Assembly (NCBI RefSeq): GCF_005938675.2
Contig: NZ_VCCH02000037.1
Span: forward strand, 1 to 64,000
Reading direction: 5' to 3'
DNA: 64,000 nt
From: Mycobacterium sp. KBS0706
GTDB lineage: Bacteria; Pseudomonadota; Alphaproteobacteria; DSM-16000; Inquilinaceae
A model generated the notes under the pieces. The model was not told the DNA's origin, searched no databases, and saw nothing but the letters and a program-made list of their open reading frames with translations. The position numbers were made by a program, and so were the translations under genes. Shown piece after piece: positions 1,707 to 6,691 of this stretch. Position 1 is the first letter of the stretch. Each line of letters opens with the position of its first letter.

Positions 1707-1745
1707 TTCGGATCCTTTGGGACGAGGATGACATCGCTCACGCCC
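1707..1745. repeat. 39-bp imperfect direct repeat, copy 1
   Basis: This 39-base stretch matches 6261-6299 at 35 of 39 positions in the same orientation. On the minus strand the other copy encodes GVSDVVLVLKDPK inside the secreted-protein gene at 6041-6691, while this one would read GVSDVILVPKDPN. Two of the four differences fall in one codon, one is synonymous and one is Val/Ile, so it looks like an aged piece of a paralogous gene rather than a fresh duplication. It supplies the stop codon of the HupE gene. Confidence 0.75.
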
Positions 1746-2757
1746 AGAACGCCGCCACCCGCTCCCAAAGCCAGAATGCGGCCAGGGCTCCGATCGCATA
1801 TGTGACGGACAGCCGGGCGATGCTTGCCATCCTTGGAGTTGCAGCCAGGCGCCTTGCGAGCGACATCGCTGCCAGCACTGCGGCGATGAAGATGAGCTGG
1901 CCGAGTTCCACTCCGACATTGAAGGCGAACAGAGCCTGCGGGACGTCGCCGCGCGGCAACCCGATCGCTGCCAGGGCGCTTGCGAAACCGAGGCCATGGA
2001 GGAGGCCGAAGGCGAAGGCCACGGCCCAGGGCCAGCGCGCGGTCAGGCTGGTTTCGCCGCGCCGCATCCGGATGATCTCGCAGGCCAGCAGCAGGATGCT
2101 CAATGCGATCGCCGCTTCGACCGGGGGGCCCGGCACACGCACAACCCCCAGCGTGGCGAGGGCCAGTGTGATGGAATGGGCGACGGTGAACGCAGTGACC
2201 GTGAGCAGTAGGCTCCGAACGCTGCGCACGATGAGGATCAAGGCCAGTACGAACAGCAGATGATCGTAGCCGAAGAGGATGTGCTCGACCCCGTGCATGA
2301 CGAACGCGCCCATGACGGCCAAGGGCCCTTGTGAGGCCGTGATCTCGATCCACGGGCGGGACGGGCGGACCAGTGTGGTCGAATAGGCGCCGTCATCCAA
2401 CTGCACCCGCACCAGCACATCCGTGATCGTGCCCGGCAGGCCCGTGAAATCGATGCGCTTTCCGGCAAGCCCGCCGTCGACCTCGATCACCTGACGCTCC
2501 AGCAGCGAGTCGGGGAGTACCCGCTGCGTCGGCTCGGTGAGGTTGCGAACGCCCTTCGGGAATACGAGCACCACTGGCAGACGCATCCCGGCGAGCAACG
2601 GTGTGCGCCAGAGCACATCGTATCGGCCGGGCGCTGTCTCCGTGAGTTCGAGATAGGCCGGACGCGCTTCATGCGCCCATGCGCTCGGGAGATGCGCCAG
2701 CACCGCCACCAGGATGCCCAGCAACAGCGACGATTGGCCTTGCCGTCGGCGGATCAC
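1738..2757 (-). CDS. HupE/UreJ_2-family membrane protein
   Basis: Predicted polytopic inner-membrane protein of 339 aa. It begins with a signal peptide (core SLLLGILVAVLAHLPSAWA) followed by an extracytoplasmic beta-rich domain to about residue 160. The family-typical membrane part starts with HGVEHILFGYDHLLFVLALI, with histidines and an aspartate that could bind a metal, and contains a second histidine motif, FGLLHGLGFASAL. The GTG start at 2757 overlaps the upstream PpiC stop (GTGA) and has AGGAG seven bases upstream, so the two are probably translationally coupled. HupE/UreJ relatives include nickel/cobalt permeases, but this long-ectodomain branch has no firm substrate. The last codons lie in a 39-bp repeat, so the C-terminus may have been trimmed by a rearrangement. 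Confidence 0.85.
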   Translation of the reverse strand: MIRRRQGQSSLLLGILVAVLAHLPSAWAHEARPAYLELTETAPGRYDVLWRTPLLAGMRLPVVLVFPKGVRNLTEPTQRVLPDSLLERQVIEVDGGLAGKRIDFTGLPGTITDVLVRVQLDDGAYSTTLVRPSRPWIEITASQGPLAVMGAFVMHGVEHILFGYDHLLFVLALILIVRSVRSLLLTVTAFTVAHSITLALATLGVVRVPGPPVEAAIALSILLLACEIIRMRRGETSLTARWPWAVAFAFGLLHGLGFASALAAIGLPRGDVPQALFAFNVGVELGQLIFIAAVLAAMSLARRLAATPRMASIARLSVTYAIGALAAFWLWERVAAFWA

Positions 2758-3743
2758 GGGGCTGCTCCTGCAAACGTTGAAGCGGCAGGCGCAATTACCT
2801 CTGAAGGCGCCGGCAGAACAATCTCGTAGCGCGCCCGCATCACGTCGAACGCCTTGCGTTTCGACTCGGCCCGCTGTTCGTCCGTCCAGGCGTCCTTGAT
2901 TGCCGGTTCCACCTCCTCGAAGGCAGGCACGCGGTCTGGCGTTATCGAGTCCACCCAGATGAGATGCCAGCCATACCCGGACTCGATCGGCCCTTGCCAA
3001 GCACCCGGCTGGAGTTTGAACAGGGCCTGGGCGAAACTCGTCCCGAAGGTGTTGGCCACCTGCAGCAGCGTCCTGTCGCCATAGTAATCCTGGAACATGA
3101 AGCGATCGGCGAGGCCCATCGTGGCAGAGGGGTCTGCGGACCGACCGGCAAGCTGCTCCCGTATCCGAGTGGCCGCGTCGCGCGCCCGTCCGCTGCGCCG
3201 GTCGGGCGAGAAGTAGAGGTGGCGGAACGACACCCGGCCCGGCAGCGTGAAGCGCTCGGCATTCGCCTCGAACCAGGCCTTGAGCTCCGCCGTCGTCGGA
3301 TCGCGGACGGTGGTCAAGTCGTCTGCGAGGAATCCCATCTTCTGCGCCATCCTGCGCTTGACGATGGTGTCTTCCTTGTCCAGGCCGAGCGCCAAGGCCT
3401 CGCGGTAGAGGATCTCTTCGCGGACCGAGTTCTCCACCAGTTGACGCATCTCGTCGGGCGTGGGCGGCCGCTTCATCTGCGCGCTCCACCCGATGATCAG
3501 CTGCAGCAGATCGTCTTTGGTCAGCTCGATCCGGTCCGGTGCGTCCGGCTGGCTCGATCCGGGCTTGAAAGCGCCATAAACGACGAACAGCACAAGCCCG
3601 GCGAGCAAGAAATGCAGCAGCGGCTCGCGCAGCCATCGCCGGCGGCTCGATGGCTGCGCGGGCGCCGGCGCGGACCCGCCCGGTTCTGTACCGACGCCAT
3701 GGGCCCGGCCGGTCCTCTCTGGATCTGCACCGCTGCCGATCAT
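2754..3743 (-). CDS. Membrane-anchored PpiC-type peptidyl-prolyl isomerase
   Basis: Predicted 329-aa periplasmic foldase tethered to the inner membrane. A Pro/Ser-rich cytoplasmic tail of about 35 residues precedes one transmembrane helix (LLHFLLAGLVLFVVYGAF). A SurA-N-like helical region follows, with ELTKDDLLQLIIGW and REEILYREALALGLDKED, and then a parvulin-type domain (FRHLYFSPDR, then GYGWHLIWVDS) that carries the histidine-bearing core motif. Its ATG overlaps the DUF3604 stop (ATGA, 3740-3743) and its stop overlaps the HupE start. The coupling suggests that it helps to fold or assemble the DUF3604 or HupE products; this is inferred only from gene order. Confidence 0.88.
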   Translation of the reverse strand: MIGSGADPERTGRAHGVGTEPGGSAPAPAQPSSRRRWLREPLLHFLLAGLVLFVVYGAFKPGSSQPDAPDRIELTKDDLLQLIIGWSAQMKRPPTPDEMRQLVENSVREEILYREALALGLDKEDTIVKRRMAQKMGFLADDLTTVRDPTTAELKAWFEANAERFTLPGRVSFRHLYFSPDRRSGRARDAATRIREQLAGRSADPSATMGLADRFMFQDYYGDRTLLQVANTFGTSFAQALFKLQPGAWQGPIESGYGWHLIWVDSITPDRVPAFEEVEPAIKDAWTDEQRAESKRKAFDVMRARYEIVLPAPSEVIAPAASTFAGAAP

Positions 3744-5965
3744 GGGCTGGCGCCCTCGATCTCGTAGTTGGCATAGCCGAATTCGTTGCTGCGAGCGGCG
3801 ACGTATTTGTCGCCGACCTTGTAGACGGTCACGTCGAACGGGGTGTTGCCGATCGTCGTGATGATGTGCCCGTCGCGGATCTCATAGAGGGCCGGCGAGC
3901 CCAACTCGCCGCTGTGCAGCACGTCGCCGATATCGCCCGGCACGGGCGCCTTCCCGTCCATGCTCACGATCAGCCGCCGGCCCGCCCTGCCATAGAAGAT
4001 CTCGAAGGGTTGGCCGGTCGCGAGATTGCGAACCTTGAGCGTCTTGCCGACGGCCAGCGCGTTCAGCTGTGCGTCGTCGAGCGCCACGGCGCCCTGTTGC
4101 AGCAGATCGGTCACCTTCGTCCCGCGCCGGGCACTCCTGCGCGCCTCGTCGGTGGGCGTGAACCAGATCGGCGAGCTCCAGGCGCGCTCCTGGACCGTCG
4201 CCGGCACGACGTCGGGCGGCACGACGCCGACCTCCTTCGCCTGGATCGTGGTCCAGCGCGGCGTCGGGATCTCCAGCACCCGGGCATAGTAGAAGGCATC
4301 CAGGCTGGGGTCGAAATCCGGATCCGTCCAGACGGTCTTCAGCTCCACCGCACCGATCGTGTTGGAGTAGCTGGCCTCCTGCAGGTTCACCGTGCTGCCG
4401 ACCGGCGGCAGGACACCCGTCTCCGGAACGATCGCCCGTTCCCCGGACCAGGCGACGTCGTAGATCTTCTCGAAACTCTGGCCGCTATGGGTCCAGCCCT
4501 TGACGATCTGGATGCGATCGAGATTGCCGCTCTCCGGATCCTTCACCGCCCAGACGACGAACGACGGCGCCTCGCCCTTTGCTGGCGGGAGGTCGCTGCC
4601 CATCGGCACACCCTTCGCATAGCCGGTCGAGATCCAGTCGTCGCCGCTCAGCGCGTCGGGGCCGAGCTCCCAGCCGCCGAAGAACCGCAGCTTGATGCGC
4701 ACGCCGCTGGTGCCGAAGGTCTCCTTGCGCTGCATGGCGGCAAAGAGCGACTCGCGCGTGTTCTCCTCGGCCCACACGCCAGTGAGCCCGGCCGGATTCT
4801 CCCGCCGCACGTCGAGCCCGGCGAAGACATGGCCGGCCATGCGCTGCTGTGCCGTGCCGTCATTGAGTCCGTGGCCGCCGAAGAAGTTCGCCTGCCGGTA
4901 GGGCACACCGGTGTCATGCGAATCGGAGCCGCCGACAAGGCCGAACTTGTAAGGGTTGTAGCCGCGCGCCTCCAGCATCGCGAGGCCATTCTTGTAGGCT
5001 TCGCGGATGTAGCTGCCGGGGATGTGCGGCACCCGCCCCGCCGGATCGCCCAGCAGGTAGTACAGCACCTCGAAATTGGCGAACTCATCGGTCGGCGACA
5101 GCACGGGCGTCGTCTCCGACTGCCCCTTGATCTGCTTGATCTCCGACAGAGGCTCGTTGTTGACCCGCTGCTGCGCCCAGGCCGCGTCGATGGGCCGACC
5201 CTTGCTGTCGACCTCGGTCGGAAACATCATGCCGTCGCTGAGATTGGCGTTGTGGGAGATCGCGAGCAGCTCGTTGCCGGCGCCGCGCTGGGCATCCATC
5301 CAGGTCCACAGATCTTCCGGATGCTGTGAATCGAGCGAACTGAACGGCATTTCCGGCACATGCGTGCAATCCTTGAAGAAGATGTTGCGGTGCAGGTTCC
5401 GGTTGTTTGGCGTTGAGGTCCACTCATAGGAACAGAAGGCCGTGAACTGGCCGGGTTCGTTGAACTTCTCGGCGGTCGAGACCGTCTCCTTCCAGACGGT
5501 GCCCGCCACCTCGGGGACGACCAGCTCCTTGACCGGGTCGTTGTCGACCATGGTCGTGCCGAGCCAGAGATAGATCCTCTGGATGTCGGCCGCGCTGTGG
5601 ACCTTGAGCTTCTCCGCGATCGGCAGCTTGCTGATCGGCGAATGGGGGTCGTTCGCCAGGCGAACCGTGCCGACATATTCCGAATGGTCGGTCACGCCCA
5701 TCCAGTCCAGCGGGGTCGTGATCTTGATGGTGTAGCCCAGCGGGTGAGCGATGGGTTCACCCCTCGCATATTTGTACGCCTCGGCCGGCCCGGTCACATG
5801 GTTGCCGAAGATGTAGGCGTCGAACGACCAGCTGGTATGGACATGCGTCTCGCCGAAATAGGCGTCCCGCTGCGGGTTCGCTTGAGCGAACGCCGGCAGA
5901 GCCGCCAAGCTGGAGAGCCCGATCCCAAGCAGCCCAGTTCGCACTCCGTATCGCAGAACATGCAT
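3740..5965 (-). CDS. Secreted DUF3604-domain protein
   Basis: A 741-aa exported protein with a signal peptide ending near AALPAFAQA. The mature start, AYFGETHVHTSWSFDAY, and the later GVTDHSEYVG resemble the metal-binding beginnings of PHP-type phosphoesterases. Further His/Asp clusters (AISHNANLSDG, GGSDSHDTGVPYRQ) would complete a metal site. DUF3604 has no assigned reaction that I can vouch for; a hydrolase is a reasonable guess, not a finding. The start at 5965 has GGGAGG upstream. It is the first gene of the overlapping DUF3604-ppiC-hupE set, and a secreted Tyr-rich protein precedes it. Length is normal for the family and no lesion is seen. Confidence 0.9.
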   Translation of the reverse strand: MHVLRYGVRTGLLGIGLSSLAALPAFAQANPQRDAYFGETHVHTSWSFDAYIFGNHVTGPAEAYKYARGEPIAHPLGYTIKITTPLDWMGVTDHSEYVGTVRLANDPHSPISKLPIAEKLKVHSAADIQRIYLWLGTTMVDNDPVKELVVPEVAGTVWKETVSTAEKFNEPGQFTAFCSYEWTSTPNNRNLHRNIFFKDCTHVPEMPFSSLDSQHPEDLWTWMDAQRGAGNELLAISHNANLSDGMMFPTEVDSKGRPIDAAWAQQRVNNEPLSEIKQIKGQSETTPVLSPTDEFANFEVLYYLLGDPAGRVPHIPGSYIREAYKNGLAMLEARGYNPYKFGLVGGSDSHDTGVPYRQANFFGGHGLNDGTAQQRMAGHVFAGLDVRRENPAGLTGVWAEENTRESLFAAMQRKETFGTSGVRIKLRFFGGWELGPDALSGDDWISTGYAKGVPMGSDLPPAKGEAPSFVVWAVKDPESGNLDRIQIVKGWTHSGQSFEKIYDVAWSGERAIVPETGVLPPVGSTVNLQEASYSNTIGAVELKTVWTDPDFDPSLDAFYYARVLEIPTPRWTTIQAKEVGVVPPDVVPATVQERAWSSPIWFTPTDEARRSARRGTKVTDLLQQGAVALDDAQLNALAVGKTLKVRNLATGQPFEIFYGRAGRRLIVSMDGKAPVPGDIGDVLHSGELGSPALYEIRDGHIITTIGNTPFDVTVYKVGDKYVAARSNEFGYANYEIEGASP

Positions 5966-6040: not shown

Positions 6041-6691
6041 TTAGTAACAGGGTGGGTATGGGTAGTACCCGCAGGGTGGTCGGTAATACGGATGGTAATA
6101 TGGCGCGGCCGCCGCCGCCGCTGCGCCATACCAGGCGGCCCGATATGCGGCGCGGCGCCAGACGCCGAAGATGTCGATGAAGATCGAGGCCGGCCCTTCG
6201 GCTCCTGCCAGGTCGCCCTCCAGGATCTCGACATTGAATGTCAGCGTGTCGCCGTTGAGCTTCGGATCCTTCAGGACGAGGACGACATCACTCACGCCCG
6301 AAGCGTCACTGCTCAGCACCGACACCGTGGCGTTCGGCGGATCCCTGTCGAAGGTCCCGCTCCCCGGCGTCCACTCTCGCATCAGATGGGCAGTGAGCGC
6401 GTGCCCGGCCGCGCGGACCGGGCGGTCGGCGAACAGGATCGAGTTCGGCGACACGCCGGTCAGAGTCAGCGTCGCCCCTTCCAGTTTGGCGCCGCGCGAA
6501 TTCATCACGATCAGCGAGGGCACGATCTCCTTCTTGGTCGGTGCGCCGATCGTCTTCTCAGCGGGATCGGTGATGGCATCCTGCGCCAGCGCCGGGGCTG
6601 GCGCGCAGAGCAATCCGACCATGGCTGCGACGACGCAGGCGGCTTGAGCAATCCGGGCTCGCTTGCCGTCGACAGAACGCAGACTGTGCAT
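6041..6691 (-). CDS. Secreted protein of unknown function with Tyr/Pro-rich tail
   Basis: A 216-aa protein with a clear signal peptide (ACVVAAMVGLLCAPAPALAQ). The body looks beta-rich (SLIVMNSRGAKLEGATLTLT, NATVSVLSSDASGVSDVVLV) and could be an Ig- or cupredoxin-like fold, though I cannot assign a family. The C-terminus is an Ala run followed by a Tyr/Pro/His tail ending in PPCGYYPYPPCY with two cysteines, a composition seen in surface-exposed or metal-touching tails. The start at 6691 has AGGGAGA upstream. It lies 75 bases upstream of the DUF3604 gene on the same strand and probably shares its transcript. A fragment of a paralogous coding sequence survives at 1707-1745. Confidence 0.72.
   Translation of the reverse strand: MHSLRSVDGKRARIAQAACVVAAMVGLLCAPAPALAQDAITDPAEKTIGAPTKKEIVPSLIVMNSRGAKLEGATLTLTGVSPNSILFADRPVRAAGHALTAHLMREWTPGSGTFDRDPPNATVSVLSSDASGVSDVVLVLKDPKLNGDTLTFNVEILEGDLAGAEGPASIFIDIFGVWRRAAYRAAWYGAAAAAAAPYYHPYYRPPCGYYPYPPCY
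6261..6299. repeat. 39-bp imperfect direct repeat, copy 2
   Basis: The intact coding copy of the repeat at 1707-1745, located in the middle of the secreted-protein gene. Together the two copies bracket the hupE, ppiC and DUF3604 genes in direct orientation about 4.55 kb apart. Confidence 0.75.

Follow-up and report, generated by a model that had tools for sequence, protein, structure and literature searches.

A putative secreted metallohydrolase of the PHP superfamily (DUF3604), a probably client-specific foldase (a PpiC-type parvulin) and a candidate metal-capture permease (HupE) appear to form one functional unit, a reading which we consider probable on balance. Their genes adjoin on the minus strand of the window, the 64,000 nucleotides of DNA that were analysed, where they are joined by 4-base overlaps. 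Such overlaps are ordinary in bacterial operons and by themselves no surprise, and what goes beyond chance in this gene set is its conserved linkage rather than the overlaps. All three families are already known, while no description of the set as a unit was found in the literature searched, which left most subscription journals outside.

Conservation of the gene set

The order on the minus strand is DUF3604 (5965-3740), PpiC (3743-2754) and HupE (2757-1738). The first gene, at 3740..5965, encodes a predicted secreted PHP-fold protein of 741 aa (PF12228; Pfam profile and AlphaFold2 model), the second, at 2754..3743, a PpiC-type parvulin (Rotamase_2) of 329 aa (Pfam profile and residue conservation), and the third, at 1738..2757, a HupE_UreJ_2 protein of 339 aa with a GTG start (Pfam profile and predicted model). 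The HupE frame was extended to 3774 by a mechanical ORF finder, and the GTG at 2757 was chosen because it agrees with the homologues. As read from the sequence, DUF3604 and PpiC share an ATGA at 3740..3743 and PpiC and HupE share a GTGA at 2754..2757, so that the location and overlaps given by the sequence-only reading were confirmed.

Directly downstream of HupE, on the minus strand at 1410-1706, lies the remnant of a DUF1254 gene, the frame of which appears broken (66 aa that are 47% identical to a protein of Rhizobium, where its gene adjoins DUF3604); intact DUF1254 genes are present elsewhere in the window's genome. At 6041-6691, upstream of DUF3604, there is a gene for a small secreted protein whose tail is rich in Tyr and Pro; its homologues are found near DUF3604 in about 10 rhizobial-type loci. 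An imperfect 43-base direct repeat (1707-1749 and 6260-6302) brackets the gene set, covers the HupE stop codon and points to a possible earlier rearrangement. A search of phage records for an origin of the set returned no match.

Among 137 wide loci with a strong DUF3604, all three genes were found inside the stretch in 94, and several of the remaining 43 end at contig ends. The order DUF3604-PpiC-HupE is kept in 62 of the 94 loci, and in the rest a single PpiC-HupE pair is preceded by two to four DUF3604 genes, the pair comes first, or DUF3604 is encoded on the other strand. The tightest junction is that between PpiC and HupE, with a 4-nt overlap in 67 of the 94 loci in comparison to 17 of the 79 loci where PpiC has DUF3604 upstream of it on its own strand. 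A 398-aa gene without a Pfam match is located between DUF3604 and PpiC in R. leguminosarum (L217, 10256-11452), and other loci likewise carry an inserted gene there. In some loci a single PpiC-HupE pair serves two to five tandem DUF3604 copies. The pair is the constant core and the DUF3604 genes multiply around it, and this sharing argues against a fixed stoichiometry and for a pair that serves several clients. The sequence-only reading had concluded from the coupling that stoichiometry is fixed, which is not supported in view of the copy numbers, the orphan DUF3604 genes, the inserted genes and the changed orders; the genome survey that it had set as its test returned a conserved linkage, with the three genes usually adjacent.

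Co-occurrence was counted in a class sample of 385 genomes from the window's class (counts on 384, the window's own genome left out) and in a phylum sample of 398 genomes (397 besides the window's own). In the class sample, 29 genomes have both a full-length DUF3604 and the PpiC subfamily, 3 carry DUF3604 alone, a single one carries PpiC alone and 351 have neither (Fisher p ~4e-39, in a test that ignores shared ancestry). For the phylum sample the numbers are 25 with both, including the window's genome (24 without it), 1 with DUF3604 only and 1 with PpiC only; with the window's genome and those shared with the class sample removed they are 19, 1 and 1 (Fisher p ~4e-30, which again ignores shared ancestry). 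HupE_UreJ_2 was found in 31 of 32 DUF3604 genomes in comparison to 67 of 352 others. In 22 of 25 class-sample loci that have DUF3604 but no nearby pair, PpiC is located elsewhere in the genome. Since the PpiC subfamily is nearly confined to genomes with DUF3604, it likely has a dedicated client, in agreement with the earlier suggestion that the enzyme has its own foldase. The near one-to-one co-occurrence in two samples also disfavours the explanation that PpiC and HupE are a general envelope-folding pair which stands near DUF3604 by chance only; parvulins are often general chaperones, and one genome (G709; L226, G709:C22:94000-108500) carries an intact pair with no DUF3604 found, yet we regard this explanation as highly improbable. 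In that locus the pair is preceded by a 171-codon ORF.

DUF3604 is present without the PpiC subfamily in four genomes (G067, G216, G361 and G500). Another genome, G201, is without a full DUF3604 and has a PpiC split over several reading frames beside HupE, with no DUF3604 nearby; it looks like a decayed set because of this broken frame and the absence of DUF3604, as would be expected if PpiC and HupE were useless alone. Protein distances among the three families are correlated at r 0.84-0.88, in comparison to at most 0.21 in 999 permutations and uncorrected for species relationships, which is expected for genes inherited together.

Records with the gene set come from Alpha-, Beta- and Gammaproteobacteria, Acidobacteriota, Bacteroidota and Myxococcota, and also from rhizobial plasmids, one of which is conjugative and carries the set next to type IV secretion genes. 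The set is accessory within the window's family, since among 16 genomes only one other gave even a weak DUF3604 match. The weak DUF3604 matches of the class sample are PHP proteins of about 750 aa with conserved cysteines, and in L197-L203, L207 and L208 such a protein is followed by a divergent PpiC and then a divergent HupE; in L204-L206 the divergent pair has no adjoining PHP gene. Two of these Cys-rich proteins, when scanned against Pfam, gave 86 and 90 bits to DUF3604, and the CehA/McbA model gave the Cys-rich proteins at most 20-29 bits against a cut-off of 80. That the three parts stay together in sequences as divergent as these is the strongest reason to regard the set as a functional unit.

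Properties of the three proteins

The window DUF3604 matched PF12228 over the whole profile with 700.9 bits (positions 1-591; cut-off 20.4), and its AlphaFold2 model, built with 66 sequences, has a mean pLDDT of 92.3. All domain coordinates given here are on the minus strand. A signal peptide was placed by eye at residues ~1-27 (AFA/Q). Alignment of the predicted model by VIA-align delimited a PHP catalytic domain at residues 30-422 (4700..5878), with Z 15.7, rmsd 3.4 and 232 aligned residues against 3e38, Z 14.4 and 211 aligned residues against 2anu, and Z 12.1 and 10.2 against two other PHP structures, PsfC (7rty) and 3o0f, respectively. As modelled, DUF3604 is thus a PHP-fold protein. Fold comparison further indicated an Ig-like beta-sandwich at residues 423-608 (4142..4699). 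The C-terminal extension of 126 residues (616-741; 3743..4120) belongs to the close subfamily only, in that close relatives match to residue 736 and distant ones end near 604; its weak calycin/MoaF-like match (4q51, Z 6.2) is below the trustworthy level. Searches of PDB sequences with the single sequence and with a profile gave no match at E 1. No NCBIfam family was matched at E 0.1, and membership in the CehA/McbA family was dropped, as NF038032 was among those unmatched.

The candidate metal-ligand set of the PHP superfamily (HxH, DH, E, H, H, DxH) is present in the window DUF3604, as assigned by PHP motif. All 66 sequences compared have H41, H43, H94, E181, H192, H238, D348 and H350, and at position 93 there is D in 63 of them and E in the other 3. 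Further invariant residues are N239, E275, Q278, K280, D293, R321, N402, R404 and R562; because invariant Arg and Lys lie outside the ligand set, an anionic ester, phospho- or similar, is hinted at, and this would be our guess for the substrate. DUF3604 is a candidate exported metal-dependent hydrolase, and the predicted fold and invariant candidate ligands support the envelope metalloenzyme proposed earlier.

PpiC matched PF13145 with 71.6 bits (cut-off 27) and has a single N-terminal membrane helix at about residues 40-60, with the catalytic domain expected in the periplasm. The sequence relatives of its parvulin domain are SurA, Campylobacter cell-binding factor 2 and PrsA. The second catalytic histidine, H260, is invariant (42/42), at the first, H175, 30 of the 42 sequences have His and 12 have Gln, and the window protein carries both histidines. 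An assignment as NifM was rejected (TIGR02933, 43.3 bits against a cut-off of 168.2).

HupE matched PF13795 with 169.5 bits (cut-off 24.5), and its predicted model (mean pLDDT 91.4) comprises a signal peptide, an ectodomain of about 115 aa and 6-7 membrane helices. The permease motif HX5DH (H159-ILFGY-D165-H166; 2260..2283) is present in 50 of 50 sequences, in which H194, E227, H254 and E284 are invariant too. With the cleavage site AWA/H placed by eye according to the AXA rule, the predicted mature N-terminal residue is His29 (AWA/HEARP; codon 2671..2673). Of 50 alignment rows, 45 have His at this position and 5 have Asp, and a histidine brace is therefore not essential. Structure comparison of the model assigned residues 29-142 (2332..2673) to a putative ZrgA/anglerase-fold ectodomain, with Z 10.2 against 8ezw (ZrgA) and 10.1 against PA4063. 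The comparison with 9gce (Ang-1) gave Z 8.1, rmsd 2.8 and 101 aligned residues, a level at which ligand-gated channel ectodomains also score (7-8), and this alignment begins at HupE residue 29 and at chain residue 1. By sequence, the ectodomain had no match to 9gce at E 1 with either protein or profile, whereas a sister HupE without adjoining PpiC or DUF3604 (L190) matches it at 1.2e-9; the window HupE is thus best called a related, separate class from Ang-1. The HX5DH motif and the metal-binding-type ectodomain support a permease of the metal type, where the sequence-only reading had suggested a metal or export channel.

Proposed maturation of the enzyme and competing explanations

In the proposed mechanism, DUF3604 would cross the inner membrane by Sec and would be folded at the membrane by PpiC, the HupE ectodomain would catch a metal ion in the periplasm, and DUF3604 would receive transition metals from or through HupE. 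Acting in trans, PpiC and HupE may serve every DUF3604 paralogue that a cell has. A more ambitious version, which we offer as tentative and rather doubtful, is that of a mobile, widespread periplasmic metallation cassette in at least two divergent versions, in which a third-class His1 ectodomain-permease would metallate a parvulin-folded PHP hydrolase.

To look for substrate clues, the neighbouring genes were clustered and scanned against Pfam. Recurrent neighbours, found in at most about 12% of loci, were a sulfatase, DUF1254/DUF1214, an SDR, an enoyl-CoA hydratase and a TonB receptor. None of them recurs as an essential partner, and the gene context therefore gave no substrate; no other gene was enriched beside the set, including any metal regulator or metal-uptake gene. 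The catabolic character of neighbours in some lineages (sulfatase, enoyl-CoA hydratase, SDR, flavin monooxygenase) would fit a catabolic set, in which HupE moves the hydrolysis product, by uptake or efflux, or a small anion, and metal binding is incidental. This is quite improbable in our estimation, as the neighbours vary from lineage to lineage and HupE retains an invariant metal-transport motif together with its metal-binding-type ectodomain.

The other alternative is metal scavenging, in which DUF3604 would hydrolyse an organic metal chelate outside the cell or in the periplasm, the HupE ectodomain would catch the freed ion for import, and PpiC would assist the folding of both exported proteins. 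It draws on the relatedness of HupE to metal importers, on the match of the ectodomain fold to ZrgA and PA4063, which are zinc proteins of uptake systems, and on the sister Ang-1 domain, whose Kd values for Cu and Ni are nanomolar (PMC12537917). We judge it unlikely, in that metal regulators and metal-uptake genes are not enriched beside the set, and many DUF3604 paralogues per pair, along with orphans, fit diversified enzymes and not one scavenging step. We prefer maturation on two grounds: the enzyme genes are multiplied but the pair is not, and metal-regulation genes show no enrichment around the set.

The weakest step of the maturation reading is the direction of HupE transport. Known HupE proteins import, and R. 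leguminosarum HupE imports metal to the cytoplasm. Import to the cytoplasm would not obviously be a supply for a periplasmic enzyme and would count against maturation and in favour of scavenging, while maturation would be favoured if the permease worked outward or if a capture domain passed metal on to a client in the periplasm. Also against maturation are the four genomes that have DUF3604 without the PpiC subfamily, the pair alone in G709, and the Gln at position 175 in 12 of 42 PpiC sequences.

The supply of the right metal to exported metalloenzymes is poorly understood, and a conserved set makes the question testable. The set also provides a first functional handle on DUF3604, a family of hundreds of genomes for which we found no assigned function, and it points to a possible role of one branch of HupE.

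Comparison with known systems

In the literature searched, from which most subscription journals were absent, the sole mention of DUF3604 was in a Chlamydia transposon list; PF12228 and PF13795 were not mentioned, and among the matches listed for HupE together with PpiC no paper was on the topic. The sequence-only reading took neither DUF3604 nor this HupE branch to have a known assigned function, which agrees with our search for DUF3604 and less so for the HupE branch. That branch is not wholly unassigned, since the Ang-1 domain found in its sister family has been crystallised and binds Cu and Ni (PMC12537917).

The HupE/UreJ-2 'anglerase' Ang-1 (9GCE) has an N-terminal His after the signal peptide and a PF13795 permease behind a beta-sandwich ectodomain, features for which the window HupE has predicted counterparts in His29 and in an ectodomain of putatively similar fold. 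Ang-1 binds Cu and Ni through the N-terminal His, and metal capture for the attached permease was proposed in 2025 (PMC12537917). The genes described beside it encode DUF4198, indigoidine synthase A-like proteins and PfkB; DUF3604 and prolyl isomerases are absent from the main text (PMC12537917). The window ectodomain differs in having no sequence match to 9gce, and the window set in having DUF3604 and PpiC.

The PHP phosphoesterases (3E38 BVU_3505, 2ANU TM0559 and PsfC 7RTY) share the fold and metal-ligand pattern predicted for DUF3604, which differs from them in being secreted and in having a beta-sandwich, a C-terminal domain (in this branch) and PpiC-HupE companions. The carbaryl hydrolases of the CehA/McbA family are likewise large PHP-type hydrolases, and divergent members of the gene set match this family weakly, whereas the window DUF3604 is unmatched by the NCBIfam model. 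NifM, the parvulin needed for the nitrogenase iron protein, resembles the role proposed for the window PpiC in that its PpiC domain is dedicated to one metalloprotein client, and it was the best NCBIfam match of the window PpiC, although below cut-off; the window PpiC differs in being membrane-anchored and placed beside DUF3604 and HupE. In SlyD with hydrogenase nickel delivery and in NosL with NosDFY, a prolyl isomerase or a membrane metallochaperone works along with metal transport in maturing a metalloenzyme; the proteins and clients of these systems are unrelated to those of the window.
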